Source of the DNA: Corallococcus sp. AS-1-6
GTDB taxonomy: Bacteria; Myxococcota; Myxococcia; Myxococcales; Myxococcaceae
DNA: 64,000 nucleotides
NCBI RefSeq assembly: GCF_020037015.1
Contig: NZ_JAIQDE010000011.1
Coordinates: 124,001-188,000 of the forward strand
Reading direction: 5' to 3'
The number at the start of each line of letters is the position of its first letter. The first letter of the stretch is position 1. The notes under the pieces are model-generated. The model was not told the DNA's origin. It saw nothing but the letters and a program-made list of their open reading frames with translations, and made no database searches. This document shows, piece by piece, positions 6,930 through 45,811 of this stretch. The translations under genes were made by a program, and so were the position numbers.

Positions 6930-7967
6930 ATGGCGATGGCGAGGAAGTCCGACGACACCCTCTCGGGAGATGTTCAGCCGGAAGACATCCGGTTGGAGGC
7001 CTCCCTGCGCCCACGCACCTTCGACGAGTACGTGGGGCAGGGGGCGGTCGTCGAGAAGCTCAAGGTGTACGTGGCCGCGGCGAAGAGCCGGGGTGACGCG
7101 CTGGACCACTGTCTGTTCTCCGGCCCTCCCGGCCTGGGCAAGACGTCGCTCGCGCACCTCATCGCGAACGAGCTGGGCGTGGGCATCCACGTCACCAGCG
7201 GCCCCGCGCTGGAGCGCAAGGGCGACCTGGCGGGCCTGCTCACCAACCTCAACGAGCGGGACATCCTCTTCATCGACGAAATCCACCGCCTCAACGCCGC
7301 CGTGGAGGAGTACCTCTACCCGGCGATGGAGGACTTCCGGCTGGATATCACCATCGACACCGGGCCCGCCGCCCGCGCGATGAAGATTGATTTGCCGCCC
7401 TTCACCCTGGTGGGCGCCACCACGCGCACGGGCCTGTTGACCTCCCCCCTGCGCGACCGCTTCCAGATTCAAGAGCGCCTGGAGTACTACGAGCCGAAGT
7501 TCCTGGAGCAGATATTGGACCGCTCCGCGCGCATCCTCGGCGTGCCCATGGACCGCGCCGCCAGCCGCGAAATCTCCACCCGCTCGCGCGGCACGCCCCG
7601 CATCGCCAACCGGCTCTTGCGCCGCCTGCGCGACTTCGCCCAGGTGGAGGGCAACGGCCGCATCACCTACGACCTGGCGCATGATTCGCTCAGCCGCCTG
7701 GGCGTGGACGCCAGCGGCCTGGACGCGATGGACCGGAAGATCCTCCTGACCATCCTGGAGAAGTTCGGCGGCGGCCCGGTGGGCGTGGAGACCATCGCCG
7801 CGAGCGTGGGCGAGCAGCGCGACACCCTCGAGGACGTCTACGAGCCCTTCCTCATGCAGGAGGGCTTCCTCATGCGCACGCCCCGGGGCCGCACCGCCAC
7901 GCTGCGCACCTACCAGTACTTCAAGAAGACGCCGCCTCCCAGCTCCCCGCAAGGGGCGCTCTTCTAG
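6930..7967 (+). CDS. ruvB: Holliday junction helicase RuvB
   Basis: This 345-residue AAA+ motor drives branch migration with RuvA. It shows [12 protein letters not shown], Walker [10 protein letters not shown] (about residues 65-73), Walker [10 protein letters not shown] (about 112-120), sensor 1 [10 protein letters not shown], the SPLRDRFQ arginine-finger region, and the C-terminal winged helix with [14 protein letters not shown]. Two in-frame ATGs (6930 and 6936) are possible starts; AGGG lies a few bases before the first. It is not in the ruvCA operon but 3 kb downstream. Confidence 0.97.
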
Positions 7968-28249: not shown

Positions 28250-30385
28250 TTGAAGCGACTGGCCCTCTTCGCCGCCTCCTGTGTCCTCGGCGCCGCCTGC
28301 AAGACGGCGGAGCCCACCCCCGAGCCTCCCCAGGCCACCCCCCCGGCCCCCGTGGCCGCCGCCGCGCCGGCCACGCCCGCGCAGCCGGCCCCCGCCGTGC
28401 CCATGTCCGAGCGCCCCATGCCGCCGGGCCTGGACGCCGCGGTGATGGACCCGTCCGTGAACCCCTGTGACGACTTCTACCAGTACGCGTGTGGCGGCTG
28501 GCTGAAGACCACGGAGATCCCCGCCGAGCGCGCGCGCTGGAGCCGCGGCTTCGAGACCGTGGCCGAGCGCAACCAGACCGTGCTGCGCGACATCCTCACG
28601 AAGGCCGCGGAAGGGCAGGGCGAGGGCACCCCGGAGGAGAAGAAGCTGGGGGACTTCTACGGCTCCTGCATGGACGAGGCGAAGCTGGAGCAGTCGCTGC
28701 CCACGCTGCGCACGTACCTGGCGAAGCTCAACGGCCTGAAGAGCCCGCAGGCGGTGGCCGGCGCGGTGGCGTGGCTGCACGCGCGCGACGTGAACGCGCT
28801 GTTCCGCGTGGGCTCGGATCAGGACCAGAAGGACGCCACGCAGGTCATCGCCGTGGTGGACGCCGGGGGCCTGGGCCTGCCGGACCGCGACTACTACCTC
28901 AAGCCCGACGTGAAGATGCGCGAGGCGCGCAACGCCTACCAGGCGCACGTGCAGAAGGTGTTCGAGCTGTTGGGCGACGCGCCCTTCGTGGCCAGCCGCA
29001 AGGCCATTGGCATCCTCGCCATCGAGACGCGCCTGGCCAACGCGCGGCTGCCCAAGGAGGACCGCCGCGAGCCGGAGAAGGTCTACCACCGCCTGGAGCG
29101 CCAGGGCCTGAAGCAACTGGCGCCCGCGTTCCAGTGGGACACGTACTTCGCGCAGGTGGGGCTGCCCGCCGGTGAAGCGCTCAACGTGACGGAGCCGAAG
29201 TTCTTCTCGGAGGTGTCCGCGCTGGTGCGTCAGCAGCGGCCGACGGACATGGGGCCGTACCTCTCCTACCACCTGGTGAAGAGCGTGCAGACGGCGCTGC
29301 CCAAGGCGCTGCGCGACGAGTTCTTCCGCTTCGAGTCCTCGGTGCTCACCGGCGCGAAGGCGGACCTGGCGCGCTGGAAGAAGTGCGTGGACGCCACGGA
29401 CGACGCGCTGCCGCACGCGCTGGCCAAGCCCTTCATCGCGCGCACCTTCGGCGCGGACGGCAAGGCCACCACGCTGGACATGGTCCAGCAGATTGAGCAG
29501 TCCTTCGAGCGCAACCTGGACACGCTGTCCTGGATGGACGCGGAGACCAAGGCGCAGGCGCTGGTGAAGGTGAAGAAGATCACCAACAAGATCGGCTACC
29601 CGGACCAGTGGCGCACCTACGACGGGCTGACGGTGACGCGCGACTCGTTCCTGGACAACCTGCTGGCGGCGGACGCCTTCGAGCAGGCGCGCCAGCTTCG
29701 CAAGGTGGGCCAGCCGGTGGACCGGCAGGAGTGGTTCATGTCGCCGCCCACGGTGAACGCCTACTACAACGCGGCCACCAACGAGATTGTCTTCCCGGCG
29801 GGCATCCTCCAGCCGCCGTTCTTCGGGCGGGACGCGTCCGCGGCGGTGAACTTCGGCGCCATGGGCATGGTGGTGGGCCACGAAATCACCCACGGCTTCG
29901 ACGACGAGGGCCGCCAGTTCGACGCGGACGGCAACCTGCGCACGTGGTGGACCCCGGCGTCGGACAAGGCCTTCCGCGAGCGCGTGTCGTGCGTGAGGAA
30001 CCAGTACGACCAGTACACCGCCGTGGACGACGTGAAGGTGAACGGCAAGCTCACCCTGGGCGAGAACGTCGCGGACCTGGGCGGCCTCAAGCTGGCGTAC
30101 GCGGCCATGGAGGCGTACCTGGCCAAGCACCCGGACCAGGCGGCGAAGGCGAACTCCTACCGCTTCACGCCGGGGCAGCAGTTCTTCCTCGCGCACGCGC
30201 AATCGTGGTGCTCGAAGATTCGTAACGAGGCTGCGCGGCAGCGGGCGCTGACGGATTCGCACTCGCCGGCGTTCCTGCGCGTGAAGGGGCCGGACGTGAA
30301 CCTGCCGCAGTTCCAGCAGGCCTTCTCCTGCCCCGCGGGCTCGCCGATGGTGGCGCCCGCTGCGAACCGCTGTGAGGTCTGGTAA
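28250..30385 (+). CDS. M13-family (neprilysin-type) metalloprotease lipoprotein
   Basis: A 711-residue zinc peptidase. TTG 28250, with GGAG upstream, gives a clean lipoprotein leader LKRLALFAASCVLGAAC; ATG 28208 would add 14 unusual residues. A Pro/Ala linker precedes the M13 N-terminal domain (PSVNPCDDFYQYACGGWLK). The catalytic domain has VGHEITHGFDDEGRQFDADG (HExxH) and GENVADLGGLKLAY (third ligand Glu and Asp). The C-terminus RCEVW is the usual M13 ending. It probably degrades peptides at the cell surface. Its last 53 codons (52 residues plus stop) are part of the 1.5-kb duplicated segment. Confidence 0.93.
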   Translation: MKRLALFAASCVLGAACKTAEPTPEPPQATPPAPVAAAAPATPAQPAPAVPMSERPMPPGLDAAVMDPSVNPCDDFYQYACGGWLKTTEIPAERARWSRGFETVAERNQTVLRDILTKAAEGQGEGTPEEKKLGDFYGSCMDEAKLEQSLPTLRTYLAKLNGLKSPQAVAGAVAWLHARDVNALFRVGSDQDQKDATQVIAVVDAGGLGLPDRDYYLKPDVKMREARNAYQAHVQKVFELLGDAPFVASRKAIGILAIETRLANARLPKEDRREPEKVYHRLERQGLKQLAPAFQWDTYFAQVGLPAGEALNVTEPKFFSEVSALVRQQRPTDMGPYLSYHLVKSVQTALPKALRDEFFRFESSVLTGAKADLARWKKCVDATDDALPHALAKPFIARTFGADGKATTLDMVQQIEQSFERNLDTLSWMDAETKAQALVKVKKITNKIGYPDQWRTYDGLTVTRDSFLDNLLAADAFEQARQLRKVGQPVDRQEWFMSPPTVNAYYNAATNEIVFPAGILQPPFFGRDASAAVNFGAMGMVVGHEITHGFDDEGRQFDADGNLRTWWTPASDKAFRERVSCVRNQYDQYTAVDDVKVNGKLTLGENVADLGGLKLAYAAMEAYLAKHPDQAAKANSYRFTPGQQFFLAHAQSWCSKIRNEAARQRALTDSHSPAFLRVKGPDVNLPQFQQAFSCPAGSPMVAPAANRCEVW

Positions 30386-30414
30386 GGCTTCGGCCCTACC
30401 TGTGGGAGGACGGC

Positions 30415-30663
30415 ATGGGAATCTGCTCGTGGTTGGTGTTGGGCGGTATCGCGGGCTGGCTGGCCAGCATCATCAAGGGCACCAACGCCCGGATGGGGAT
30501 GTTCGCCAACATCTTCGCCGGCATCGTGGGTGCCATGCTGGGCGGCTGGGTGTTCAGCTTCTTCGGAGGCAGCGGCGTGACGGGCTTCAACCTGTACTCG
30601 CTGCTGGTGGCCACGGTGGGCGCCGTCATCCTGCTGTCCATCCTGCAAGCCATCCGGAAATAG
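30415..30663 (+). CDS. GlsB/YeaQ/YmgE-family membrane protein, copy 1
   Basis: An 82-residue protein with three hydrophobic segments and the family pattern MGICSWLVLGGIAGWLAS, then GMFANIFAGIVGAMLGGWVF, then LYSLLVATVGAVILLSILQ. These small 'transglycosylase-associated' inner-membrane proteins are stress-related, with unknown biochemistry. GTGGGAGGACGGC provides the ribosome binding site. An identical copy lies at 42791-43039. It converges with the radical-SAM gene. Confidence 0.92.
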   Translation: MGICSWLVLGGIAGWLASIIKGTNARMGMFANIFAGIVGAMLGGWVFSFFGGSGVTGFNLYSLLVATVGAVILLSILQAIRK

Positions 30664-30691
30664 CGCCCCCGGCTGTCGCGCCCTTCGCTGC

Positions 30692-31726
30692 CTAGAAGAG
30701 CGACAGTTGGGGTGAGGTGGAGGGCCGCGCGGGGCGCCGGAAGGTGTCCGGCGCGGCCTCCGTGATGGACGACGCGCGCATGCCCACCTTGCGCGCCGCC
30801 GTCGCGAAGAGCTGGTGGATGGTCTGGGCGTAGAGCCCTTCGCCGCGCATGCGGTGCTTGAAGCGGCTGTCGGTGAGCTCCCCGCCGCGCGTCTCGCGGA
30901 TGCGGTGCAGCACCCGGTCCGCGCGCAGGGGCAGCTTCGCGCGCAGGCGCTCCTCGAAGACGGCCTGCACGGGGCCGGGGAGCCGCAGGAGCGTGTAGTG
31001 CGCTCTCGTGGCGCCGGCCTCCCGGGCTGAAGCGAGCACCCGCGCGATGTCCTCGTCGTTGAGGCCGGGGATGATGGGGGCCACGGACACGGCCACGTCG
31101 ATGCCGGCCTCGGTGAGCTTGCGGATGGCGGCCAGGCGCCGCTTGGGCGTGGCGACGAGCGGCTCCATGGCGCGCGCCAGCTCCTCGTTGTGGAAGGGGA
31201 GGCTGATGCTCACGAACAGCCGTGTCTCCGCCGCCAGCCGCTGGAGCACGTCCAGGTCGCGCTCAATCAGCACGCCCTTGGTGACGATGCCCACGGGGTT
31301 TCGGTACTCGGCGCAGACCTCCAGGCACTGGCGGGTGAGCCGGAGCGAGGCCTCCAGGGGCTGGTAGCAGTCCGTGACGCCGCTGAAGACGACCGTCTCT
31401 CCCTTCCACGACGGTCGGTCGAAGGCTTCGCGCAGCAGCTCCGGGGCGTTGGGTTTGACGACGAGGCGCGTCTCGAAGTCGGTGCCCGCGCCGAAGTCCA
31501 GGTACTGGTGCGTGGGGCGCGCGTAGCAGTAGGCGCAGGCGTGGAGGCAGCCCCGGTACGGGTTGACGCTCCAGGAGAAGCACACGTCGGGGCTGTCGTT
31601 GGTCGCGATGATGGAGCGGCTGTGGTCCTCCCAGACCTCCAGGCGCGCGGGGGGAATCTCGTCCAGGTACTCCACCGCGGTGCTCGCCCAGGGGTTGGGC
31701 GGATTGTCGACAGGGCGGGCCTTCAC
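30692..31726 (-). CDS. PA0069/SPL-type radical SAM protein, copy 1
   Basis: A 344-residue protein with the radical-SAM cluster motif C60-LHA-C64-AY-C67 in NPYRGCLHACAYCYARP. HQYLDFGAGTDFETRLVVK and FSGVTDCYQPLEASLRLTR are typical of the PA0069 group related to spore photoproduct lyase. It should bind a [4Fe-4S] cluster and S-adenosylmethionine; the reaction is unknown. The C-terminus is basic and ends SPQLSLF. An identical copy is at 43068-44102. No other gene of the operon type is attached; it converges with the GlsB-like gene. Confidence 0.9.
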   Translation of the reverse strand: MKARPVDNPPNPWASTAVEYLDEIPPARLEVWEDHSRSIIATNDSPDVCFSWSVNPYRGCLHACAYCYARPTHQYLDFGAGTDFETRLVVKPNAPELLREAFDRPSWKGETVVFSGVTDCYQPLEASLRLTRQCLEVCAEYRNPVGIVTKGVLIERDLDVLQRLAAETRLFVSISLPFHNEELARAMEPLVATPKRRLAAIRKLTEAGIDVAVSVAPIIPGLNDEDIARVLASAREAGATRAHYTLLRLPGPVQAVFEERLRAKLPLRADRVLHRIRETRGGELTDSRFKHRMRGEGLYAQTIHQLFATAARKVGMRASSITEAAPDTFRRPARPSTSPQLSLF

Positions 31727-31765
31727 CCGGCAAGGGTGCGGCTGAAAGCCCGTTCAGTCGAGGCG

Positions 31766-32178: not shown

Positions 32179-35100
32179 ATGCGTTTATTGAAATGGTGTC
32201 ACGCCGGGGTGTTGGTACCCACCCTGCTGCTGGCGGCTTGCGAAAAGCCCGCTGAAGGGCCCGCGTCCGCCCCGGAGCTGAAATCCACCAGGAGCCGGCT
32301 GGGGACGGGCGAGATTTCGTTGGCGACGATAGCTCCGCTCGATCGGTTTAGTGGAAAGGCTGGCGGCCGTACCGGTATGTCGTTGGCCAGCGGAGACCTC
32401 AACGGCGATGGTCTCAGCGACCTCGTCGTTGGTGCCCCAGGTCCTGCCTCCGGCACCTTCGTAAGTGAAATCTATGTTCTCCGAGGGAACACATCCCCGG
32501 ACATCAGAACTGCCTCCAACCTGCTCAATGGTGTCAACGCCTACCGGGCGGGTGCCAGTATTGGGGTTGGCAATTACACGGGAACGAGCCGGAGCGACCT
32601 CCTGGTTGGAGCGCCCGGGTATAGCCTGAACCGTGGCACCACCTACCTGCTGGACGGCACTTCGTTGTCCTCGGGGACGGTCCAACTCTCCACGGCCAGG
32701 AACATCGCAGGCCTTTCGCCCAATGACACCGCTGGCTTCGCCGTGGCCCTGGGCGACGTCACGGGCAGCCCGGATGTGGACCTCATCATCGGAGCCCCCA
32801 ATCGCACCACGGGGAGCGGGGCCGTCTACGTCGTCAAGGGGCCCATCAATCTGGCGACCGTGGCGACGACACTCACCGGCGCCGCCACCACCATCACGGG
32901 ACCCGCGGGCAATGCGATCCAGGCAGGGACGTCGCTCGCGACCGCGGACCTCAATGGCGATGGCGCGACGGACCTCATCATCGGCTCTCCCAAGCACAAC
33001 GGAACGGGCGCCGTCTTCGTTTTCTTCGGGCCCTTGCCCCAGAGCTCGACGGCACTGTCCATCACGAGCGCGAACCTGACGCTCCTCGGGGCCACGGCGA
33101 ACGAGCTTGCGGGCACCTCGGTGGCTCGCGTGCCGGACGTCGATGGCGATGGGGATGACGAGCTGCTGGTGGGCGCTCCCGGAACGGGCTCACTCCCGGG
33201 CAAGGCCTACCTGGTGTACGGCGGCTCCTCGGGCACACATGCGCTGACCACATTCCCGCAGTTCGTCGGTACGGCGGGTGACCTCGCGGGCACCTCCGTC
33301 GCGGCGGTGGGGGATGTGGATCACGATGGCTTCACGGATTATCTGGTGGGAGCCCCGGGCACCGCATCCGGTGCGGGAGCCGCCTACTTGATTCACGAAG
33401 GCCCCACGCCGTTCGCGGACACCCAGCCACTCTCCGACTTCTATCGTTTCTCGGGTGAGTCTGCGGGTGATGGCGCCGGAACGACCGTGGCGGGTGTCGG
33501 AGATGTCAACGGTGACGGGAATCCCGACATCGCGATTGGCGCCCCCACCACGGGCGGCACCACGGGCACTGTCTACCTGCTGTATTGGCGCACCTGGTAC
33601 GGCGACGCAGATGGTGACGGCTTCGGAGACCGTCAGCAGCTGCATGAAGGCTTCTTCAAGCCGACGGAGGGCGCTTGGGTCGAGAATGCCGACGACTGTG
33701 ACGACTCCAATGAGTCCATCAATCCCAATGCGCTGGAAATCTGCAACAATATTGACGACAACTGCCGCAACGGTGTCGACCTGGATGACCCCGAGATTGT
33801 CGGAGCGGACATCTATTACACCGACCAGGATGGTGATGGACATATCCAACCCGAGGATTTTGGAGAGCCCGCGTGCAGCCGTCCCGACGGCAAAATCCCT
33901 GTCGAAGAGGCCTTGGGCCTGGAGTGCAGCGACAGGAACAGCGACGACGACGCGACCACGTACGATGGCGCCAACGAGGTCTGCGATACCAAGGATAACA
34001 ACTGCGACAACACCATCGACGAAGGTGTGACGGCCGACTACTTCCGTGACTCGGATGGTGACACCTATGGTGATCCCAATGACGCGGTCGCGGCCTGCTC
34101 GCCGCCGTCCGGCTACGTCACCAACAACACGGACTGCGATGACACCCGGGACACCGTAAGCCCGGCCGCCGTCGAGGTCTGCAACGGCCAGGACGACAAC
34201 TGCGATGGGTCCTCCGACACCAACGCGACCTGGTACGTCGACCTGGATGGCGATGGCTTCGGCTCGGATACCCCGTATCCTCCCATCACCGTGGCGGCGT
34301 GCGGTGCCGTGCCGTTCGGCTATGCCAACAACAAGGACGACTGCAACGACCGGAACGCCTCGGTGGGCGGTCCCAAGGTCTGGCACCCGGATACGGATGG
34401 TGACGGCTTTGGTGATCCCAGCCAGGAGGTCAAGGCCTGTACGCAGCCGGCGGGTTACGTCGCAAATGACACGGATTGCGACGACACCACCAACACCGTG
34501 ACGGAGATCCACTGGTATCCGGATGGTGACGGCGACGGCTTCGGCAGCCCGAACGGACACGTCAGCGCCTGCGTCGGGCCGCCCGCTGGGTACGTCGCGC
34601 TCAACACGGACTGCAATGATACGAACGCATCGGTTGCTCCGAACCAGGCCGAGGTCTGCAACGGCGTGGACGACAACTGCAGTGGCGCCGCCGACGAGGG
34701 CGTGACGTCGACCTTCTACCGCGACGCGGACGGTGACGGCTTTGGCGACCTCAACACCACCACCCAGGCCTGCGCCGCGCCCCCGGGCTACACCTCCGAT
34801 ACCACGGACTGCAACGACAGCGACGCGACGATCAACCCGCAGACGCTCTGGTACGCGGACACGGACTCGGACGGCTTCGGCAGCACGACGTCCACCATGT
34901 CATGCGTGAAGCCCGATGGGTTCGTCCGAGTCAACACCGACTGCAACGACAACAGCAACACCACCCATCCCGGCGCCCTGGAGTTCTGCAACGGCGCGGA
35001 CGATGACTGCAACTCGGTCATCGACGACAGCACCGCGGTCGACACCGTCACCTGGTACCGGGACGGCGATGGCGACGGTCACGGCCAGTCCTTCGATTCG

Positions 35101-36468
35101 AAGAAGGCCTGCACCGCGCCCAGCGGGTACGTCAGCAGCAGCGACGACTGCAACGACACGAACGCGGCCATGTTCCCGGGCAACCCGGAGGTCTGCGACG
35201 GGCTCGACAACAACTGTGACTACGAGAAGGACGAGAACGTGAAGAACACCGTCTACCGCGACGTGGACGGCGACGGCTTCGGAACCCCGCTCTCCTTCCA
35301 GCTCGTCTGCGACACGCCCGCCGGCTACGTGTCCAACAACCAGGACTGCAACGACAACAACAGCAGCGTCGCCCCGGGCCTCGCCGAGGTCTGTAACGGC
35401 GTGGATGACAACTGCGACGGCGTTGTCGACGAAGGCGTCAAGACCACCTACTACGCCGACCAGGACGGCGATGGCTTCGGGACGACCAACGCGGCCTACG
35501 CCACGGAGGCCTGCTCCGCTCCTCCCGGCTACACGCAGACCCCGGGCGATTGTGACGACCGCCGGAGCGAAGCAAACCCCTCGGGCACGGAGGTCTGCGA
35601 CGGGCTCGACAACAACTGCGACGGTGCCGTGGACGAAGGCGTCCAGCTGACCTGGTACCAGGACTCGGACGGCGATGGCTTCGGCGTCCCCGGCGTGACG
35701 ACCCTGGCCTGCACCAAGCCGGCCGGCTACTCGGCCAACACCACGGACTGCGATGACAGCCGGGGTGACGTCAGCCCGGGCAGCGTGGAGCTGTGCGAAG
35801 CCGTCAGCAGCGCGCAGGTGGACAACGACTGTGACGGGCAGGTGGACGACGCCATCAACGCGCGCACCTGGTACCAGGACGCGGACAACGATGGGTTCGG
35901 GCGCGAAAGCCAGACGGCGCAGGCGTGCGCGGCTCCGGCCGGCTACGTCGACAAGCCGGGCGACTGCGACGACACGCTCGCCAATGTCTATCCGCAGGCT
36001 CCGGAGACCTGTGAGACGACCGGCCCGCAGGTTGACAACAACTGCAACGGCGACCTGAACGACGATCCCAACGCCCCCATCTGGTACGGCGACGGAGACG
36101 GGGACAACTACGCGGGGACCACGTTCCAGCTGCGTTGGTGCACGGACCCCAGCAACCTGACGGACCCGAGCGGCAAGGTCATCGTCCGGGGCCATTACGT
36201 GCCCAGCCTCATCCCCACGGACTGCAATGACAGCAACGCGAGCATCAGCCCCGGACAGACCGAGGTCTGCAACAACATCGACGACAACTGTGACGGCCAG
36301 GTCGATGAAGGGACCCAGACGGCGTTCTATCCGGACGCGGACAACGACGGCTGCGGTTCGAGTGCCTCCGCGCCGCACATGGGCTGTGGGGCGCCAGGCG
36401 CGTGTGGGTTCAACTTCGTCACCAACAACAGTGACAGGGACGATCAGAACGCGTCCATCTGCCTCTAG
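32179..36468 (+). CDS. Lipoprotein with seven FG-GAP repeats and MopE-type metal-binding repeats
   Basis: A 1429-residue surface-type protein. The N-terminus MRLLKWCHAGVLVPTLLLAAC is a lipoprotein signal. Residues about 55-475 hold seven FG-GAP units (for example SLASGDLNGDGLSDLVVGAP, AGVGDVNGDGNPDIAIGAP), enough for one integrin-like seven-bladed propeller with Ca-binding DxNGDG loops. Residues about 475-1429 are some 15 units of WYxDxDGDGFG...GYV...DCxD, of which 11 carry the ExCNGxDDNCDGxxDEG core of the MopE-like putative metal-binding family. The final unit is degenerate (NNSDRDDQNASICL, Cys to Arg). It probably binds Ca and perhaps copper at the cell surface. It lies inside the repeat-bounded region. 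Confidence 0.88.
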   Translation: MRLLKWCHAGVLVPTLLLAACEKPAEGPASAPELKSTRSRLGTGEISLATIAPLDRFSGKAGGRTGMSLASGDLNGDGLSDLVVGAPGPASGTFVSEIYVLRGNTSPDIRTASNLLNGVNAYRAGASIGVGNYTGTSRSDLLVGAPGYSLNRGTTYLLDGTSLSSGTVQLSTARNIAGLSPNDTAGFAVALGDVTGSPDVDLIIGAPNRTTGSGAVYVVKGPINLATVATTLTGAATTITGPAGNAIQAGTSLATADLNGDGATDLIIGSPKHNGTGAVFVFFGPLPQSSTALSITSANLTLLGATANELAGTSVARVPDVDGDGDDELLVGAPGTGSLPGKAYLVYGGSSGTHALTTFPQFVGTAGDLAGTSVAAVGDVDHDGFTDYLVGAPGTASGAGAAYLIHEGPTPFADTQPLSDFYRFSGESAGDGAGTTVAGVGDVNGDGNPDIAIGAPTTGGTTGTVYLLYWRTWYGDADGDGFGDRQQLHEGFFKPTEGAWVENADDCDDSNESINPNALEICNNIDDNCRNGVDLDDPEIVGADIYYTDQDGDGHIQPEDFGEPACSRPDGKIPVEEALGLECSDRNSDDDATTYDGANEVCDTKDNNCDNTIDEGVTADYFRDSDGDTYGDPNDAVAACSPPSGYVTNNTDCDDTRDTVSPAAVEVCNGQDDNCDGSSDTNATWYVDLDGDGFGSDTPYPPITVAACGAVPFGYANNKDDCNDRNASVGGPKVWHPDTDGDGFGDPSQEVKACTQPAGYVANDTDCDDTTNTVTEIHWYPDGDGDGFGSPNGHVSACVGPPAGYVALNTDCNDTNASVAPNQAEVCNGVDDNCSGAADEGVTSTFYRDADGDGFGDLNTTTQACAAPPGYTSDTTDCNDSDATINPQTLWYADTDSDGFGSTTSTMSCVKPDGFVRVNTDCNDNSNTTHPGALEFCNGADDDCNSVIDDSTAVDTVTWYRDGDGDGHGQSFDSKKACTAPSGYVSSSDDCNDTNAAMFPGNPEVCDGLDNNCDYEKDENVKNTVYRDVDGDGFGTPLSFQLVCDTPAGYVSNNQDCNDNNSSVAPGLAEVCNGVDDNCDGVVDEGVKTTYYADQDGDGFGTTNAAYATEACSAPPGYTQTPGDCDDRRSEANPSGTEVCDGLDNNCDGAVDEGVQLTWYQDSDGDGFGVPGVTTLACTKPAGYSANTTDCDDSRGDVSPGSVELCEAVSSAQVDNDCDGQVDDAINARTWYQDADNDGFGRESQTAQACAAPAGYVDKPGDCDDTLANVYPQAPETCETTGPQVDNNCNGDLNDDPNAPIWYGDGDGDNYAGTTFQLRWCTDPSNLTDPSGKVIVRGHYVPSLIPTDCNDSNASISPGQTEVCNNIDDNCDGQVDEGTQTAFYPDADNDGCGSSASAPHMGCGAPGACGFNFVTNNSDRDDQNASICL

Positions 36469-36562: not shown

Positions 36563-38440
36563 TCAGTCGCGGAAGTACCAGAGGTGCGCGCCTCCACCCA
36601 GGTCCCGGGCCTGTGGCTGGCGTTCAAGCAGCAGGGGCGACTGCGCGTGGAGCAGCTCTTCTCCGTTCGGCGCCACCACGCGCGTCAGATGCCACTCCCC
36701 CAGGTCCCGCAGCCGCTCGAACCAGGCCTGATCGTAGGGCATGACCGCGGCCAGGAGTTCCTGCTGCTCCAGCCGCTCGCCCAGCCGATCCAGGTCGGGC
36801 ACCTGGGCCACGGAGACACGGTCCAGACGGGGAGTGCCCCGGAAGTACGCGCGGAAGGCGCGAAGCTCCACGGCGTCCGGGCCCAGCCGCTCCACCACGA
36901 AGGGCCCACTGCCCACGGGCTTGGAACCGAAACCCTGCGGATCCGCCTCGTAGGCCGTCCGCGGCACGATGCCCGCGGACAGCAGCGGCGTCAGCGCGTC
37001 CGGTGCGTCCAGCAGGAACGTCACCTGGCGGCCCTGCAGGGTGACGTCGAGCACGCGCGCGGCCCACGCACGCCAGGGCGACTCCTGCTCGCGCATCCGC
37101 TGGAAGCTGAAGCGGACGTCCTCCGCCGTCACCGGGGTGCCGTCGTGGAAGTGGACATCCCCCCGCAGCGTCGCGGTGACGGCGTAGCGGCGGGTGCCGC
37201 CCACGTCCACCGGCTGCGGCGCGCTCCAGGCCTCGGCGAGGTCCGGCACGGCTTCGCCCTGAGGGCCGTCGCGCCTGCCCAGCCCGCGGAAGACGAGCCC
37301 CATGAGGCTCGAGGACTCCATGGGCCCGGCACGCAGCGGATCCAACCGTGACAGGACGCGGAAGTCCCCCAGCGCCAGCGCCTGCCTCGGCCGGACTCGC
37401 ACCGTGCGGGTGAAGGCGCGCCGTGCGCGGTCCTCCCCTGGCACAGTGCCCTCCGTGTCCGCGACGAAGCGCACCGTGTGCGTTCCCTGACCCAACTGGA
37501 GCTGCCTGCGGATGCTGCTCTCCGCCGAGCGCTGCCCTGGCTCCAGGGGCCCATGGGGGAGCTCCGCAACGGGCGCTCCGTCCACGCTCCATTGCACCTT
37601 GAAGGCGGATGTCGCGAGCGCGCCGGGATTGGCCACCAGCGCCTCCACGTCGAAGGGCTCGTCCGCGAACACCACCTCCGTGCCGATGCGCAGCTCCTCG
37701 ACCAGCAGGTCGGGAACGGTGGACTCCCAGGCGATGACGTTGGAGGGCTGCGCGCCCAGCACCGCGAAGACGAGCCCCGCGCCCCGCGCCTCGGGCGGGA
37801 CCTCCACCGTCACCCGGGAGGAGCTCCAGTCCAGCACCTGCGCCTCGCGCCCGTGGAACATCACCACCGAGCCCGCGGGCCGCACCAGCCCCAGGTTGCC
37901 ACCCTCCAGCACCACGGTGCTTCCCGGGGTGCCTCGCGCCGGCCGGGCGAGCGTGAAGTAGGGCAGGCCTCGCCAGTCGCGCAGCTTCGTTTCGGGGAGG
38001 TCCGTTTTGCGGCTGACCTCCGCCAGCATGGAGGAGGTGCGGGTGTAGCGGAGCAGGTCGTCCACTGAATAGATGCCAATGGCATTGAGTGCGCGGATCT
38101 CCGTCAGGGTGATGCCAGGGAGTTTCGCCAGGGGGCCGTTGGTGGTCGTGTCCTCCATCGGGTGGCGAAGGCCCGCCAGCTGGCTCTCCAGGACCTGGGC
38201 GAAGTCCAGCTTGAGCAGTGTGTCGCTGGTCTGACCGGGGTCCACCGCCCGGAAGAAGAGGCGGCCTTCCAGGTCCCGGCGCAGCGTCACCTCCGCGTCC
38301 AGGGAGATCTTCTTGATGGAGAAGGTCACCTTGCGTGAGTACGACTTGAGCAGGAGCGTGTCCTCTGCCCGGTCTACCTCCGCTGCGATGGCATCCACCA
38401 CGTCGGCGAGCTGCCACTCGATGTTGTCCTGCGCACTCAT
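36563..38440 (-). CDS. Unusual fusion: small N-domain, HhH, IPT, CARDB and SBP_bac_5-like domain
   Basis: A 625-residue protein with no signal peptide. Residues about 6-80 have one amphipathic helix followed by beta strands (LADVVDAIAAEVDRAEDTLL, KVTFSIKKISLDAEVTLRR), resembling trypsin-co-occurring domain 2. Residues 104-135 form a helix-hairpin-helix (LAKLPGITLTEIRALNAIGI). Residues 168-236 are an IPT/TIG-like beta domain; 242-350 a CARDB-like domain (DLLVEELRIGTEVVFADEPF). Residues 360-600 look like the first lobe of a family 5 solute-binding protein (LRGDVHFHDGTPVTAEDVRF, KPVGSGPFVVERLG). Domain calls are by eye. Its start overlaps the stop of the 96-residue gene by four bases. Function unknown. 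Confidence 0.75.
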   Translation of the reverse strand: MSAQDNIEWQLADVVDAIAAEVDRAEDTLLLKSYSRKVTFSIKKISLDAEVTLRRDLEGRLFFRAVDPGQTSDTLLKLDFAQVLESQLAGLRHPMEDTTTNGPLAKLPGITLTEIRALNAIGIYSVDDLLRYTRTSSMLAEVSRKTDLPETKLRDWRGLPYFTLARPARGTPGSTVVLEGGNLGLVRPAGSVVMFHGREAQVLDWSSSRVTVEVPPEARGAGLVFAVLGAQPSNVIAWESTVPDLLVEELRIGTEVVFADEPFDVEALVANPGALATSAFKVQWSVDGAPVAELPHGPLEPGQRSAESSIRRQLQLGQGTHTVRFVADTEGTVPGEDRARRAFTRTVRVRPRQALALGDFRVLSRLDPLRAGPMESSSLMGLVFRGLGRRDGPQGEAVPDLAEAWSAPQPVDVGGTRRYAVTATLRGDVHFHDGTPVTAEDVRFSFQRMREQESPWRAWAARVLDVTLQGRQVTFLLDAPDALTPLLSAGIVPRTAYEADPQGFGSKPVGSGPFVVERLGPDAVELRAFRAYFRGTPRLDRVSVAQVPDLDRLGERLEQQELLAAVMPYDQAWFERLRDLGEWHLTRVVAPNGEELLHAQSPLLLERQPQARDLGGGAHLWYFRD

Positions 38441-38727
38441 GGGCCCTCCGGGGTCGTGCCGACGGACTGGACGCTCAACGTGATGGCCACGCGGCCCACG
38501 CCTGTCACCGCGGGCGAGTCCCGGGTGCTGGGGAGGGTGAGGACGAAGCGCGCGGGTTCCTCCTGCGGATCCGTGCCTGCCTCGCGAAGCCGCAGGTAGG
38601 CCGGGACGTTCAGGTCCACGTCCTTGACCTGGAGCCGGAGCCCGGCCTCCTGGGAGGTCCGGTCGATGGAGTCGGCCAGGTCATCGAAGATGAGGGTGAG
38701 GAGATCACCGAGGGAAATGTCAGCCAT
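38437..38727 (-). CDS. Small protein of the three-gene accessory operon
   Basis: A 96-residue protein with a helix (SLGDLLTLIFDDLADSIDRT) followed by strands (LRLQVKDVDLNVPAYLRL, RFVLTLPST, GRVAITLSVQSVG). This helix-plus-strands layout parallels residues 6-80 of its downstream neighbour, and both resemble the Trypco2-type module, though similarity is only by pattern. No signal peptide or Cys. It starts 72 bp after the 355-residue gene ends and overlaps the next gene (ATGA), so the three are one operon. Confidence 0.7.
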   Translation of the reverse strand: MADISLGDLLTLIFDDLADSIDRTSQEAGLRLQVKDVDLNVPAYLRLREAGTDPQEEPARFVLTLPSTRDSPAVTGVGRVAITLSVQSVGTTPEGP

Positions 38728-38799
38728 GGGAGTGGATAGGCACCGGAGGAGGGGACCGCGGGACTGGCGGCGGGATGCCGCCAGCCCCGCGGTGTGAGG

Positions 38800-39867
38800 T
38801 CAGTTGATGGGGTCATCCACGACGATGGGCGCGAAGGTCTCGGTCCGGAACTGGATGCGGACCTGCCCGATGATCTCTGCGTTCATCGTCACGGCGTCGA
38901 AGGAACTCTCGTTCACGGAACTCACCTGCAGGTTGCTGTAGCTGGCGCCGAAGCTCGTCCTGAACCAGCCGCCGAACCCCACGCGGCCGCTGACGTTCGC
39001 GCTGAAGTTGCTCTGGTCGTAGCGGTTGCGCTGCACGGTCTGCGCGTCGGTGGACGTGACCGTGAAGGTCAGCCGCGAGAGGATCTCTCCGTTGGAGACC
39101 ACGATGCGAGCCATGCCATCCCGGGCCATGGCGCGCAGGTGGGTGATCATCTTGATGGCCAGCATCTCCGCGATGGCGGCGCGGATCAGGTCCACCTGCG
39201 CCGTGGTGAACGACGTGGCGGAAGAGGAAACCTCGTTCGGCGACACGAACTGGAGCGGGACCTTGTTGTCCTTCGTCTCCTCGAGCAGGGCAGTGACGAC
39301 CTGCATGAGGTTCTCATGAGCCGTCGTCGCGGGCGCGCCCGTGGCGGCGTCCGCCGCCGTGTCCTTGAACGTGTAGCCCGTGCGGCAGCTGGTGCCCCCG
39401 AGGCCATCCCCGTAGCGCTGGGACAGGTGCGCGTTGACCTGCGCGGTGGTCACGTGCTCTTCCTGGAACTCGGCCAGCGTCTTCGCCAGATCCGCCACCA
39501 GCTCCGCGTAGGCCTTCATCTGCTTGATGGTGGCCCCGACGATGGCGTCGAAGGTGCCGGTGATGAGCCCCGCGGTGAACTCCACGAAGCCCAGGTTCTG
39601 CACCTGCTTGAGCGCCGCCACGCCGGAGTCCAGCGCCGGCGTGGCCAGGGTGGAGGGGGGGCTCCGGGGCTGGCGCGTGGACAGGTGCTGGATGGCGCCG
39701 TGCACGGCCTCGCCCACCGCCTCTCGCACGCTCATGCGCTGCTTCTCGTCCCGGATGCCAGCGACCGCGTCGTCGATGGTCTTCATCAGGGGGGCCAGGT
39801 CCCGCTCATAGCCAGACGGCTGCGCTGCGCCCGGGCGCTTGCCCCGGGCACGAATGCTCTTTTCCAT
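38800..39867 (-). CDS. Unrecognised 355-residue protein, first gene of the accessory operon
   Basis: The protein starts MEKSIRARGKRPG at 39867, with no signal peptide. Residues 20-140 are helical (MKTIDDAVAGIRDEKQRMSV, FDAIVGATIKQMKAYAELV). The middle has a lone Cys (GTSCRTGYTF, about 161) and helices (VDLIRAAIAEMLAIKMITHL). Residues about 255-350 are beta-rich with an alternating Gly/aromatic pattern (FSANVSGRVGFGGWFRTSFG, AEIIGQVRIQFRTETFAPIV), like an amphipathic hairpin. No family was recognised. It leads the operon with the 96- and 625-residue proteins and is divergent from the SBBP-repeat gene (about 140 bp). Confidence 0.7.
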   Translation of the reverse strand: MEKSIRARGKRPGAAQPSGYERDLAPLMKTIDDAVAGIRDEKQRMSVREAVGEAVHGAIQHLSTRQPRSPPSTLATPALDSGVAALKQVQNLGFVEFTAGLITGTFDAIVGATIKQMKAYAELVADLAKTLAEFQEEHVTTAQVNAHLSQRYGDGLGGTSCRTGYTFKDTAADAATGAPATTAHENLMQVVTALLEETKDNKVPLQFVSPNEVSSSATSFTTAQVDLIRAAIAEMLAIKMITHLRAMARDGMARIVVSNGEILSRLTFTVTSTDAQTVQRNRYDQSNFSANVSGRVGFGGWFRTSFGASYSNLQVSSVNESSFDAVTMNAEIIGQVRIQFRTETFAPIVVDDPIN

Positions 39868-40006
39868 GATGTGCGTCCTCTTGGTGATGGTGCGGTGTCG
39901 CGACGGGCCCGTATGCCCATGGGCTGCGCGCGACGAAGCTCATGATGCAGGAATGGTCTGACATTCACGTTTTGCTGGTATGTGGTCCAAGCATGGGAGG
40001 ATGCGG

Positions 40007-42604
40007 ATGATGCGGAGCGCGAAACTTCGACTGGTATTGGGGCTGTCCTGGCTGGGCGGGGGGGCCGCCGAGGCTCAATCGCCCGAGCACCTGACGCCGC
40101 CTGTCTGGAGCCGGCAGTTGGGAACGACCCGGTACGAGCAGGTGTCTGGCATCGCGGCGTCATTCAATGACGTATTCCTGGCGGGCTACAGCCAGGGACA
40201 GCTCGGGACGGAACCCTCCGCGGGAAGCTCGGACGCCTTCGTGGCGCGCCTGCGTGCCAGCGGCGAGGTCGCCTGGACGCGGCAGTTTGGCTCATCAGCG
40301 AATGAGTACGTCACGGGCGCGGCGGTGCATGACGCCAGTCCCAACGCGGTGGCTGTGTATGCCACGGGCTACACCTCCGCGGCCCTGCCTGGGAATGTCC
40401 TCGTGGGAATGTCCGACGCCTTCCTCGCGAGGTACGACGCGCAAGGAGGGCTGCAATGGCTCCGGCAGTTCGGCACGTCCTCCGGTGACTTCGCCCAGGG
40501 CGTCGCGACCGCGCCGGACGGCAATGTCTATGTGGTGGGGTACACCTCCGCGTCCATGGACGGCCAGGCCTGGGCGGGAGGTCAGGATGCCTTCGTGGTG
40601 AAGTACGACGCGGCGGGGGACCGGCAGTGGTCACGGCTGACGGGGACCAGCAAGAACGACCAGGCCCGGGCCGTGGCCGTGGGGGCGGACGGCAGCGTCT
40701 ACGTCACGGGTTTCACGTTCGGAGGGCTCAATGGCAACGCCAACGCAGGGGGCACCTCCTCCACGACGTCGGATCTCTTCCTCGTGAAGTACGACGCCGC
40801 AGGGCAGCGGCTGTGGACGCGGCAGCTCGGCACGAGCACCCCGGACGTCGCCCAGGCGGTCGCCACGTCCCGCCGCGCTTCAGGCGAGGTCGAAATCTAT
40901 GTCGCTGGACGCACGCAGGGCGGGCTGGATGGCAATGCTTCGCTCGGGAGTCATGACATTGTCGTGGTAAAATACGATGCGTCGGGAAACCGCGTGTGGA
41001 CGCGGCAATTGGGGACGTCTGGAGAAGAGCAGGTGTTTGGGGTCACTTCGGACGGCGGAGGCAATGTCTATGTAACGGGTTCCGTTCCTTCGGACCTCCA
41101 GACAGACGCGCCGCTGGGCAGCAATGACCTGGTGTTGTTCAAGCTGGATGCTGCGGGTGGGCTCCAGGCCCGCCGGCAGCTGGGGTCCACTCCCGCGGGG
41201 GACCCTGCGCGCATCAGCGATGCGGGGCTCGCCGTGGCGGTGGACCCGGGGCGGGGCGTCTATGTCGGCGGCTACACGGAGGGACTGCTCGGGGCGACTC
41301 CTTCAGGGGACAAGGACGCCGTGGTGGTGAAGTACCTGGAAGGCTGCGAGGAAACCTCTCCCGGGCAGTGCGCGTGGGGCTACGGCTGGGGCCGTCAACG
41401 TGCTCCGGATGGATGGGTGCGGCAGCTCGGGTCCACACTGGACGATCATGCGGCGGCCATCGTCGCGACGCAGGATGGCCTCTATACAGTGGGTGAAACC
41501 TACGGCAGCTTCCATGGAGGCGCCCCGCTGGGCGGAGGCGACCTGTTCCTGTCCGCCCACGACACGCAGGGCGGGCTTCGCTGGGTCCGGCAGTTTGGCA
41601 CCGCCGATGATGAATTGATTGGCAGCCTGGCCGCGGACGGCGCGGGCAACCTCTATGTCGCCGGAGGCACCAGTGGTGCCTTCACCGGCCACACCTCGGC
41701 GGGCTTCTTCGATGCATTCCTGGCCAGGTATGACGCCTCGGGGCAGCGGCTCTGGACCTGGCAACTCGGCTCGTCGGAGTTCGATCTGGCCCGCGCGGTG
41801 GCGGCCGCGCCTGGCGGCGGTGTCTACGTCGTGGGCAGTACGTATGGAAACCTCGATGGCAACCTGAGCGCTGGCTACGGTGAGAGTGACTTCTTCATCT
41901 CGAAGGTGGACGCCGCCGGAGGCCGGGAGTGGACGCGCCAACTGGGAACCGCGGGGCCGGATGAAGCCGTGGCCGTAGCGGTGGACTCACTGGGAGGCGT
42001 CTACGTCGCGGGGACGACGTCGGGCGGCATGGGCACGGGAGGTTCGCAAGGGGACACGGACGTCGTGCTCGTGAAGCTCGATGCGGACGGACACGTCCTG
42101 TGGTCCCGCCAGATGGGCTCGCCGGGGCCCGACTCGACCGTGGGCGTGGTGGAGACCTCGGCTGGCATCCTCGTCGCGGGAGGCGCCGGCAGTGGTGGCG
42201 GCGGTCAGCCGTCGCTGGGGGGCAACGACTTCTTCACCGCCCTCGTGACGCCAAGCACCGGGCAGCCCCTCGGCTGGCGGCAGTTCGGCTCGGGGTTCGA
42301 CGAGTACGTGGGAGGGCTCTCCACGGACGGCGCGGGCGGCGCATGGCTCACGGGGAGCACGTTAGGGGCCATGGGAACGCCGCTGGGAGGCCAGGACGCG
42401 GTGTTGATACACCTCTCGGCCCAGGGCCAGCCCCAGCAGGTGCGTCAGCTCGGTACCGTGGATGACGAGCATGCGACGGGCGTCACCGTGGATGCCCAGG
42501 GCCGCGTCTATCTGGTGGGCGAGACATTGGGCGTCTTCGAGGGCCAGGCGTCCTCGGGCTCGTTCGACGTTTTCGTCTTGAAGGATGACGCGCCGCTCGA
42601 CTGA
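40007..42604 (+). CDS. Double SBBP-repeat (beta-propeller) exported protein
   Basis: About 865 residues. Of several in-frame ATGs (39980, 40001, 40007, 40010), 40007 has GGGAGG at the best spacing and gives a signal peptide (AKLRLVLGLSWLGG, ending AEAQ). The rest is 14 SBBP repeats, each with a W(T/S)RQLGT strand, a GxVYVxGYT strand and DAFVxKYDAxG. Seven lie before and seven after an odd linker holding the only two Cys (EGCEETSPGQCAWGYGWGRQ), so two seven-bladed propellers are likely. The stop TGA spans the junction with repeat copy 2: T belongs to the unique side, GA to the repeat. Confidence 0.88.
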   Translation: MMRSAKLRLVLGLSWLGGGAAEAQSPEHLTPPVWSRQLGTTRYEQVSGIAASFNDVFLAGYSQGQLGTEPSAGSSDAFVARLRASGEVAWTRQFGSSANEYVTGAAVHDASPNAVAVYATGYTSAALPGNVLVGMSDAFLARYDAQGGLQWLRQFGTSSGDFAQGVATAPDGNVYVVGYTSASMDGQAWAGGQDAFVVKYDAAGDRQWSRLTGTSKNDQARAVAVGADGSVYVTGFTFGGLNGNANAGGTSSTTSDLFLVKYDAAGQRLWTRQLGTSTPDVAQAVATSRRASGEVEIYVAGRTQGGLDGNASLGSHDIVVVKYDASGNRVWTRQLGTSGEEQVFGVTSDGGGNVYVTGSVPSDLQTDAPLGSNDLVLFKLDAAGGLQARRQLGSTPAGDPARISDAGLAVAVDPGRGVYVGGYTEGLLGATPSGDKDAVVVKYLEGCEETSPGQCAWGYGWGRQRAPDGWVRQLGSTLDDHAAAIVATQDGLYTVGETYGSFHGGAPLGGGDLFLSAHDTQGGLRWVRQFGTADDELIGSLAADGAGNLYVAGGTSGAFTGHTSAGFFDAFLARYDASGQRLWTWQLGSSEFDLARAVAAAPGGGVYVVGSTYGNLDGNLSAGYGESDFFISKVDAAGGREWTRQLGTAGPDEAVAVAVDSLGGVYVAGTTSGGMGTGGSQGDTDVVLVKLDADGHVLWSRQMGSPGPDSTVGVVETSAGILVAGGAGSGGGGQPSLGGNDFFTALVTPSTGQPLGWRQFGSGFDEYVGGLSTDGAGGAWLTGSTLGAMGTPLGGQDAVLIHLSAQGQPQQVRQLGTVDDEHATGVTVDAQGRVYLVGETLGVFEGQASSGSFDVFVLKDDAPLD

Positions 42605-42761
42605 GGCTGCGCGGCAGCGGGCGCTGACGGATTCGCACTCGCCGGCGTTCCTGCGCGTGAAGGGGCCGGACGTGAACCTGCCGCAGTTCCAGCAGGCCTT
42701 CTCCTGCCCCGCGGGCTCGCCGATGGTGGCGCCCGCTGCGAACCGCTGTGAGGTCTGGTAA
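42603..42761 (+). pseudogene. 3' fragment of the M13 metalloprotease gene
   Basis: Fifty-three codons matching the end of the M13 gene (EAARQRALTDSHSPAF to RCEVW and stop) without start, promoter or catalytic part. It is a passenger of the duplication and marks copy 2 as the derived left junction. Confidence 0.92.
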
Positions 42762-42790
42762 GGCTTCGGCCCTACCTGTGGGAGGACGGC

Positions 42791-43039
42791 ATGGGAATCT
42801 GCTCGTGGTTGGTGTTGGGCGGTATCGCGGGCTGGCTGGCCAGCATCATCAAGGGCACCAACGCCCGGATGGGGATGTTCGCCAACATCTTCGCCGGCAT
42901 CGTGGGTGCCATGCTGGGCGGCTGGGTGTTCAGCTTCTTCGGAGGCAGCGGCGTGACGGGCTTCAACCTGTACTCGCTGCTGGTGGCCACGGTGGGCGCC
43001 GTCATCCTGCTGTCCATCCTGCAAGCCATCCGGAAATAG
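42791..43039 (+). CDS. GlsB/YeaQ/YmgE-family membrane protein, copy 2
   Basis: Identical 82-residue product to 30415-30663, with the same ribosome binding site because the upstream M13 tail was copied too. Whether it is transcribed depends on read-through from the SBBP gene or a promoter inside the M13 tail. Confidence 0.9.
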   Translation: MGICSWLVLGGIAGWLASIIKGTNARMGMFANIFAGIVGAMLGGWVFSFFGGSGVTGFNLYSLLVATVGAVILLSILQAIRK

Positions 43040-43067
43040 CGCCCCCGGCTGTCGCGCCCTTCGCTGC

Positions 43068-44102
43068 CTAGAAGAGCGACAGTTGGGGTGAGGTGGAGGG
43101 CCGCGCGGGGCGCCGGAAGGTGTCCGGCGCGGCCTCCGTGATGGACGACGCGCGCATGCCCACCTTGCGCGCCGCCGTCGCGAAGAGCTGGTGGATGGTC
43201 TGGGCGTAGAGCCCTTCGCCGCGCATGCGGTGCTTGAAGCGGCTGTCGGTGAGCTCCCCGCCGCGCGTCTCGCGGATGCGGTGCAGCACCCGGTCCGCGC
43301 GCAGGGGCAGCTTCGCGCGCAGGCGCTCCTCGAAGACGGCCTGCACGGGGCCGGGGAGCCGCAGGAGCGTGTAGTGCGCTCTCGTGGCGCCGGCCTCCCG
43401 GGCTGAAGCGAGCACCCGCGCGATGTCCTCGTCGTTGAGGCCGGGGATGATGGGGGCCACGGACACGGCCACGTCGATGCCGGCCTCGGTGAGCTTGCGG
43501 ATGGCGGCCAGGCGCCGCTTGGGCGTGGCGACGAGCGGCTCCATGGCGCGCGCCAGCTCCTCGTTGTGGAAGGGGAGGCTGATGCTCACGAACAGCCGTG
43601 TCTCCGCCGCCAGCCGCTGGAGCACGTCCAGGTCGCGCTCAATCAGCACGCCCTTGGTGACGATGCCCACGGGGTTTCGGTACTCGGCGCAGACCTCCAG
43701 GCACTGGCGGGTGAGCCGGAGCGAGGCCTCCAGGGGCTGGTAGCAGTCCGTGACGCCGCTGAAGACGACCGTCTCTCCCTTCCACGACGGTCGGTCGAAG
43801 GCTTCGCGCAGCAGCTCCGGGGCGTTGGGTTTGACGACGAGGCGCGTCTCGAAGTCGGTGCCCGCGCCGAAGTCCAGGTACTGGTGCGTGGGGCGCGCGT
43901 AGCAGTAGGCGCAGGCGTGGAGGCAGCCCCGGTACGGGTTGACGCTCCAGGAGAAGCACACGTCGGGGCTGTCGTTGGTCGCGATGATGGAGCGGCTGTG
44001 GTCCTCCCAGACCTCCAGGCGCGCGGGGGGAATCTCGTCCAGGTACTCCACCGCGGTGCTCGCCCAGGGGTTGGGCGGATTGTCGACAGGGCGGGCCTTC
44101 AC
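43068..44102 (-). CDS. PA0069/SPL-type radical SAM protein, copy 2
   Basis: Identical 344-residue product to 30692-31726, including C60/C64/C67. Upstream sequence beyond 44141 differs from copy 1 (here the 3' end of the DUF4135 gene, there a noncoding AT-richer stretch), so the two copies may have different promoters. In this position it lies 50 bp downstream of the DUF4135 gene in the same direction and could be cotranscribed with it. Confidence 0.9.
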   Translation of the reverse strand: MKARPVDNPPNPWASTAVEYLDEIPPARLEVWEDHSRSIIATNDSPDVCFSWSVNPYRGCLHACAYCYARPTHQYLDFGAGTDFETRLVVKPNAPELLREAFDRPSWKGETVVFSGVTDCYQPLEASLRLTRQCLEVCAEYRNPVGIVTKGVLIERDLDVLQRLAAETRLFVSISLPFHNEELARAMEPLVATPKRRLAAIRKLTEAGIDVAVSVAPIIPGLNDEDIARVLASAREAGATRAHYTLLRLPGPVQAVFEERLRAKLPLRADRVLHRIRETRGGELTDSRFKHRMRGEGLYAQTIHQLFATAARKVGMRASSITEAAPDTFRRPARPSTSPQLSLF

Positions 44103-44152
44103 CCGGCAAGGGTGCGGCTGAAAGCCCGTTCAGTCAAGGCGCCCGTGTCCCG

Positions 44153-45811
44153 TCAGAGCAGCGGGCCACACCCGAGCGTCGTCTCCAGCGCCGTGCGCAG
44201 CTTCGTCTTGAGCTGCGGCCGGCCCATGGCGCCCCGGAGCGGGTTCAGCGTGTTGCGCACCTCCGTGAGGTTCGCCACCGTCACGCCCTGCGCGGTCGCG
44301 GCGAGGTAGGTGACGCCCTGGGTGCGCAGGGGCGTGAAGAAGTGCTGGCGGTTGTGGGGTTCGAACAGGGCCCCGGGAACCGCGTTGTGCTGGCCGCCGT
44401 ACCACGTCAGCCAGTCGAACAGCCCCTGGCCAATGGCATGGGCCTCCGTGCTCAGGGTGCCGTTCATGTTCTGGGTCATGCCCTCCGCGTGCGCGCGGCA
44501 CATGTCCGTCGTCATCAGGAGCACGCGCGCCATGGGGGCGACGTTCTGGAACTGGTTGAGCCAGGCGTCCACCCGGCCCGTGTTGAGGGCGGTGACGATG
44601 CGGTCCACCTCCTCGCGGATGCCGGCCAGGATTTCGTTCGGGTACGCGGAGGCCTGGACCCAGGCGCCGTGGGGCGCGGTGCTGAACCCCGCGTTGACCT
44701 CCTGCTGGTTGTAGGGCGCGGACACGTTGCTGGCCTGCCACTGTCCCCGGTAGAGGTCGGTGGTGAAGACGCCGCCCACCATGCTGTGCGGCGGCGGGGC
44801 GATGTGGAGCACCTGGGACAGCGCGGCGTGGGCGATGGGGTTGCCGTGCGGCCCCGCGTAGTTGAAGCCCATCTCCGCGTCGATGAGGTGGGGCCCCTGC
44901 GCGGTGGCCATCACGTTCTCGTGATGCAGGTCGGTGATGCCGAACACCGCCGACACCGTGATGATCCGGCCCAGCTTCCGGAAGTACGTGGGCTGATCCA
45001 CCAGGGGAATCTGCCGCGCCTTCGCGACCATCTGCATGTAGCCGTACTCACCGCGCGCGTGCGGGAACGCGACGATGCGGATCGCCGGGAGCGCCGCGTC
45101 GAGCGTGGTGAAGAGGCTGTCGGTGTACGGCAGCAGGGCGGGGTAGTGCATCCGGCAGAGCTGGTACGACTGCGGGTCGCCCATGAGCAGCAACTGGAAG
45201 GTGAGGTCCGACGGCTTGTAGACGACCCGCCCTCCGCAGGAGAACCGCAGCAGCGCGACGCGGTGGCCCGTGTGGTGGGGATCGCTGCCGGTGACGTCCA
45301 CGTCGGCGAGGCCCCCGGTGATGCCGAAGGCGCTCCGCAGCAGGGCCCGGTCCCCCATGATGCGGCCCACCAGCGAGGCGCCGAAGTCCACGTGCGCCCG
45401 CACCATGTCCTGGATCATCCGCCAGACGCGGTCCGCCGGAGTCTCCGAGAGCGTCTTCACCGTCCCCAGCGCGTTGCGGCCCAGGCTCCAGGCGAAGCTG
45501 AGCGGGCGCAGGTTCCAGGCGTTGTCCATCGCGCCCCACTCCCTGCGCGCGGACAGCCCCGCGGCGGCGGAGCAGGGGCCGTACAGGTCCATGGCCGTGC
45601 GGTGGAGGAAGTTGTTCGCCAGCAGGGTCCCCGTCAGGTTCTGGAACCCCGCCAGCTTGAGCACGCCCGCCAACTGGTTCACGACCTGCTTGAGGGCGTC
45701 CTTGATGAACGGCTTGACCGCGTTCACGTGCGGGGGCGCGCCCTGGATGACCGCCGTTCCCATGAACGTCGTCACTTCGTTCAGCGCGTCGTCGATCTCG
45801 GCGTCGTACAT
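44153..45811 (-). CDS. Stand-alone DUF4135 (LanM dehydratase-like) protein
   Basis: A 552-residue cytoplasmic protein. GSDPHHTGHRVALLRFSCGG then VVYKPSDL (K199-P200) matches the N-terminal lipid-kinase-like domain of type 2 lanthipeptide synthetases. FGITDLHHENVMAT (D294, H296, H297, N299) and PHLIDAEMGF (D311) supply the other kinase-like catalytic residues. There is no C-terminal LanC-like cyclase with its zinc Cys/His ligands, so it is not a full LanM. It might phosphorylate a peptide, protein or small molecule; no precursor peptide was seen next to it. Confidence 0.83.
   Translation of the reverse strand: MYDAEIDDALNEVTTFMGTAVIQGAPPHVNAVKPFIKDALKQVVNQLAGVLKLAGFQNLTGTLLANNFLHRTAMDLYGPCSAAAGLSARREWGAMDNAWNLRPLSFAWSLGRNALGTVKTLSETPADRVWRMIQDMVRAHVDFGASLVGRIMGDRALLRSAFGITGGLADVDVTGSDPHHTGHRVALLRFSCGGRVVYKPSDLTFQLLLMGDPQSYQLCRMHYPALLPYTDSLFTTLDAALPAIRIVAFPHARGEYGYMQMVAKARQIPLVDQPTYFRKLGRIITVSAVFGITDLHHENVMATAQGPHLIDAEMGFNYAGPHGNPIAHAALSQVLHIAPPPHSMVGGVFTTDLYRGQWQASNVSAPYNQQEVNAGFSTAPHGAWVQASAYPNEILAGIREEVDRIVTALNTGRVDAWLNQFQNVAPMARVLLMTTDMCRAHAEGMTQNMNGTLSTEAHAIGQGLFDWLTWYGGQHNAVPGALFEPHNRQHFFTPLRTQGVTYLAATAQGVTVANLTEVRNTLNPLRGAMGRPQLKTKLRTALETTLGCGPLL

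Follow-up and report, generated by a model that had tools for sequence, protein, structure and literature searches.

A conserved, mobile three-gene unit of the Myxococcaceae built around an unnamed protein family, with relatives beside subtilase genes in other bacteria

The window analysed here is a 64,000-nucleotide stretch of the Corallococcus sp. AS-1-6 genome (contig NZ_JAIQDE010000011.1, positions 124,001 to 188,000). Three open reading frames, designated A, B and C, lie on its minus strand between two plus-strand genes for repeat proteins, and an exact direct repeat bounds the insert that holds them:

30227..31759, no strand assigned: left copy of an exact 1,533-bp direct repeat
32179..36468, plus strand: FG-GAP / MopE-repeat protein, lipoprotein-like, 1429 aa; convergent neighbour of A-B-C, kept in G007 and G140
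36563..38440, minus strand: gene C, open reading frame for a multi-domain protein of 625 aa
38437..38727, minus strand: gene B, open reading frame for a small helix-plus-strands protein of 96 aa
38800..39867, minus strand: gene A, open reading frame for a protein of 355 aa from an unnamed family
39980..42604, plus strand: SBBP beta-propeller protein, secreted, 874 aa; divergent neighbour of A-B-C, kept in G007 and G140
42603..44135, no strand assigned: right copy of the exact 1,533-bp direct repeat

In this copy, A and B are separated by 72 bp, and the frames of B and C share 4 bases. The first-pass annotation had described three tightly spaced minus-strand frames of 355, 96 and 625 residues, the last two overlapping by four bases, and its coordinates proved exact. 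It had also found no signal peptide in any of the three, which agrees with the absence of a signal-like N-terminal stretch from A, B and C and with 19-residue Kyte-Doolittle windows that never exceed 1.41. A, B and C are real, selected genes: Nei-Gojobori comparisons with two orthologous loci (G007, on a contig identical to that of MAG PMG_225 (L035), and G140) gave dN/dS values of ~0.19-0.26 for all three, and they are therefore maintained under purifying selection.

The insert between the direct repeats is 10.8 kb long. The repeat itself contains the 3' end of an M13 peptidase gene, a small membrane-type protein of 82 aa and a radical-SAM gene, and its right copy starts at the stop codon of the SBBP gene. 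This 1,533-bp duplication could have arisen from a single-crossover integration; an exact repeat of 1.5 kb could also be an assembly artefact. The sister genome G006 follows the left flank without a break up to position 31766, then has 1.29 kb of other sequence, and rejoins the right flank at 44149. At the same site, after the radical-SAM gene, ~3 kb is present in G010, and G013 has no match to the DUF4135 gene. Because the site varies among these sister genomes, this position near tRNA-Gly looks like an insertion hotspot. The DUF4135 (lanthipeptide-synthetase-like) protein is encoded at window positions 44153-45811, directly past the right repeat.

A profile search found A in 8 of ~190-195 Myxococcota genomes, and a Myxococcota search with a nine-row A alignment returned the same eight; within the source genus, it is carried by 2 of 16 genomes. 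The question raised at first pass, whether homologues of the three genes co-occur, has a clear answer: they were found together and in strict order, A then B then C, in all six Myxococcaceae loci found (the window, the C44 paralogue in the same genome, G007, G140, G116 and G102). Reading frames are intact in all A-B-C loci read, and the 4-base B/C overlap of the window recurs in L062, L063 and L064. G154 groups a short A with another A-like protein and with a protein of 137 aa at the C position, and in G075 only a fragment is present, on a short contig. Members of the A family are known from at least three bacterial phyla, A having been located by tblastn on the Burkholderia pyrrocinia plasmid pBPJTT and on Tolypothrix/Fremyella plasmids. 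A-B-C is a conserved, selected, patchily inherited and mobile unit, and no description of it was found in the literature searched.

The patchy distribution and the exact repeats bounding the insert would also fit a passenger without present function, selfish or in decay and left over from a genomic island, as would the C protein of the C44 paralogue, which is shortened to 301 aa and ends after the IPT/TIG domain. The dN/dS values of all three genes and the intact frames of every A-B-C locus read argue against such a leftover, which we consider very unlikely.

As judged by sequence comparison, A belongs to no named family. It has no credible match in Pfam, NCBIfam or PADLOC, only weak and implausible matches in PHROG, and none in the phage genome collection searched; its family profile found no solved structure among PDB sequences (best E 0.85). 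A 16-member family alignment places the motif F-x-x-F-x-x-x-L-I-x-G-T-F-x-A-I-V-x-A-x-I-x-Q-M in a helical core (F94..F134), followed by a beta-rich C-terminal part (R254-I-V-V-x-x-G ... G334-x-V-x-I-x-F) that ends in Ser/Gly-rich amphipathic strands. The initial description of A as beta-rich holds for the last ~100 residues, but the preceding ~250 appear mainly helical, a layout read from the sequence pattern and from the secondary structure of a low-confidence model. AlphaFold models of A and C, built from two-sequence alignments, reached mean pLDDT values of 38 and 43, too poor to be of use. No transmembrane-grade hydrophobic segment is present in A.

A kinship of A with DUF2589 (PF11655), suspected on inspection of the sequence, was rejected (hhalign probability 0.7%, no hmmscan match). 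DUF2589 clusters resemble A clusters in holding consecutive paralogues that are small and have a helix-then-strand layout, accompanied by a small partner gene, partly in the same genomes, but significant profile similarity is absent (probability under 1%), and DUF2589 was not found in the source genome. Two or three DUF2589 paralogues in a row, accompanied by a conserved partner protein (MISLAHLVGAILKD... in L076 and L077), were seen in L076 (4845-7989), L077 (5106-8572) and L078 (5806-7005) and make up another uncharacterised module in the same families.

The domains assigned to C are as follows:

C 9-65: probable Trypco2 (Pfam profile match below the cut-off, and HMM-HMM comparison)
C 109-160: helix-hairpin-helix/DUF4332-like (profile match)
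C 160-220: IPT/TIG (profile match)
C 243-334: CARDB (profile match)
C 397-573: SBP_bac_5, N-terminal half (Pfam profile match)

Trypco2 ("trypsin-co-occurring") is an adaptor whose definition goes back to its frequent occurrence beside trypsin-like peptidases in VMAP conflict systems (Kaur et al. 2020, PMC7159879). Against its profile (PF19631), window C scored 17.3 bits, and 20.9 bits in the genome search, both below the Pfam cut-off of 24.2 bits; that cut-off is reached by C of the C44 paralogue (L039; 30.7 bits) and of the G007 orthologue (L084; 24.2 bits). An alignment of C N-termini compared with the Trypco2 domains of L081-L083 gave an HMM-HMM probability of 92% and a pairwise E of 5.5e-7. 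B, which has no credible Pfam match and no NCBIfam match, gave a probability of 42.6% against the Trypco2 profile (pairwise E 2.6e-4) with a similar layout, and may be a second, stand-alone Trypco2-like domain. Comparison with the known anti-phage defence systems in PADLOC-DB returned no match for B or C, as for A. The original impression that none of the three proteins matches a known system is mostly right for A and B and has to be revised for C, which probably opens with an adaptor domain of described putative conflict systems (PMC7159879).

The solute-binding-like lobe previously noted in C corresponds to a real Pfam match to SBP_bac_5 (94.4 bits, E 1e-26), of which roughly half is covered (profile positions 2-183 of 368). 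C lacks both the complete two-lobe domain and the signal-like N-terminus of a family 5 ABC-transporter solute-binding protein. A precedent for such a domain working in the cytoplasm is provided by SgrR and DsvR, where SBP_bac_5 sits on a transcription factor and hence inside the cell (PMC13060122). Unlike these proteins, C has no DNA-binding HTH that could be found and an SBP domain reduced to about half, and its score of 44 bits against the NCBIfam SgrR model is far under the model cut-off. C relatives outside the Myxococcaceae retain Trypco2-HhH-IPT and nothing beyond.

Outside the Myxococcaceae, the unit occurs in fuller clusters. A syntenic A-B-C followed by an S8 subtilase is found in a second myxococcal family as well as on the Burkholderia plasmid, and the order A-B-C-S8 subtilase-600-aa helical protein is shared by Burkholderia (L061) and G082 (L065); outside the Myxococcaceae generally, B was assigned from position, size and general pattern, its profile scores not being significant. 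Four-base overlaps join B to C and C to S8 in both clusters, and in Burkholderia A to B as well; the overlapping genes are probably translationally coupled. In the related, plasmid-borne cluster of Tolypothrix (L079), the order is alpha/beta hydrolase, S8, peptidoglycan-binding protein, helical protein, A, two more proteins, a small protein at the B position, and C. The S8 proteins beside the unit keep the subtilase serine motif and have no signal-like N-terminus, which suggests intracellular-type proteases. A Paraburkholderia plasmid (L121) considered as a further relative was set aside: it carries a helical protein of the 600-aa type, with A, B and C absent nearby. Clustered with that protein, at 6774-7817, is one with repeated EGEWE/ESE motifs.

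The two large clusters also contain several A-family genes, four in L061 and five in L065, so that each holds 4-5 diverged A paralogues, together with an amidase-Peptidase_C70 fusion whose G082 version opens directly with the catalytic domain. These features, shared across two phyla, would be expected if A were a structural or membrane-active subunit (an oligomeric ring, filament or pore) of a self-contained lysis or delivery machine armed with the peptidoglycan amidase and proteases, the three-gene unit being a regulatory remnant. The amphipathic Ser/Gly-rich strands ending A and the peptidoglycan-binding protein of Tolypothrix point the same way. However, none of the proteins could be assigned to a tail, sheath, baseplate or holin family, A has neither a notable PHROG match nor a match in phage genomes, and it has no hydrophobic segment of transmembrane grade; we regard such a machine as quite improbable.

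The peptidases of the fuller clusters and the probable Trypco2 domain at the start of C recall the Trypco2/VMAP/MoxR-vWA ternary systems. VMAP systems likewise occur in hosts with multicellular life (myxobacteria, filamentous cyanobacteria), although the A-B-C host Burkholderia is not multicellular. The two differ in their components: the A-B-C neighbours scanned, which comprised part of the flanking genes, included no recognisable MoxR, vWA-core or VMAP gene, nor was a trypsin-like peptidase recognised beside A-B-C, the clusters L061, L065 and L079 having an S8 subtilase instead. For this reason, A-B-C is not classed as a VMAP system. No description of the A family was found in Kaur et al. 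2020 (PMC7159879).

The unit keeps different company in the Myxococcaceae. No peptidase or other recognised effector was seen adjoining A-B-C in any locus of this family, and a propeller or repeat protein stands beside it in every one, the repeat families differing. Besides the SBBP and FG-GAP/MopE pair of the window, G007 and G140, an RCC1/SBBP protein lies directly upstream of A-B-C in G116 (with a secreted-type VIT/vWA protein ~1.7 kb away), Kelch proteins lie both upstream and downstream in G102, and the C44 copy adjoins a protein with ELWxxDGT repeats seen in its sequence. SBBP genes are few, their matches grouping into ~3 genes in G000, so this adjacency is not expected by chance. The pattern would fit a helper in assembly, export or quality control, a cytoplasmic complex that would hold or target giant secreted beta-propeller proteins before secretion. 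Yet the SBBP/MopE loci of the window, G007 and G140 are a single inherited block, which leaves ~four independent contexts, and the background density was counted for SBBP; Kelch and RCC1 genes may be abundant in the genomes concerned. Nor was any such propeller recognised adjoining A-B-C in the Burkholderia and G082 clusters. A helper role is the leading rival, and in our view a rather unlikely one.

The explanation that we favour, with a probability of about 0.42, is that A-B-C forms the centre of an adaptor/sensor module of conflict or envelope type that is associated with peptidases and has spread horizontally. A would be a cytoplasmic scaffold, several A paralogues co-existing within one large cluster, and B together with the Trypco2-HhH-IPT part of C would bind both A and a client. 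Ancestrally, this client would be an intracellular protease, unleashed or aimed upon a trigger. The Myxococcaceae form would have lost its own protease from the locus and gained CARDB and the half SBP on C as an extra part for recognition. What this form senses is most likely a ligand or failed export, and its target would be either an effector encoded elsewhere or the neighbouring surface proteins. The first-pass annotation had proposed a sensing and effector set; the sensor/adaptor-like domains agree with the first half of this proposal, but the three-gene form has no recognisable effector, the S8 candidate being confined to the fuller clusters. Against a protease adaptor stands the five-gene block with propellers, which is stable across genera, a stability less typical of a fast-turnover defence locus.

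A bolder version would place A-B-C-S8 in a class of its own among conflict or altruistic-lysis systems, under the control of an intracellular protease, with an undescribed oligomerising A family and swappable C recognition domains and partners, and rewired in the Myxococcaceae so as to guard secreted beta-propeller proteins or be triggered through them; we hold this to be unlikely. Defined by its order, overlaps and motifs, A-B-C is an uncatalogued module around a family that neither Pfam nor NCBIfam contains. Should it prove to be gated by a protease, the Trypco adaptor theme would reach past trypsin-like proteases to subtilases and past the MoxR-vWA systems, and the unit would be a case of a solute-binding half-domain replacing the effector as the variable part.
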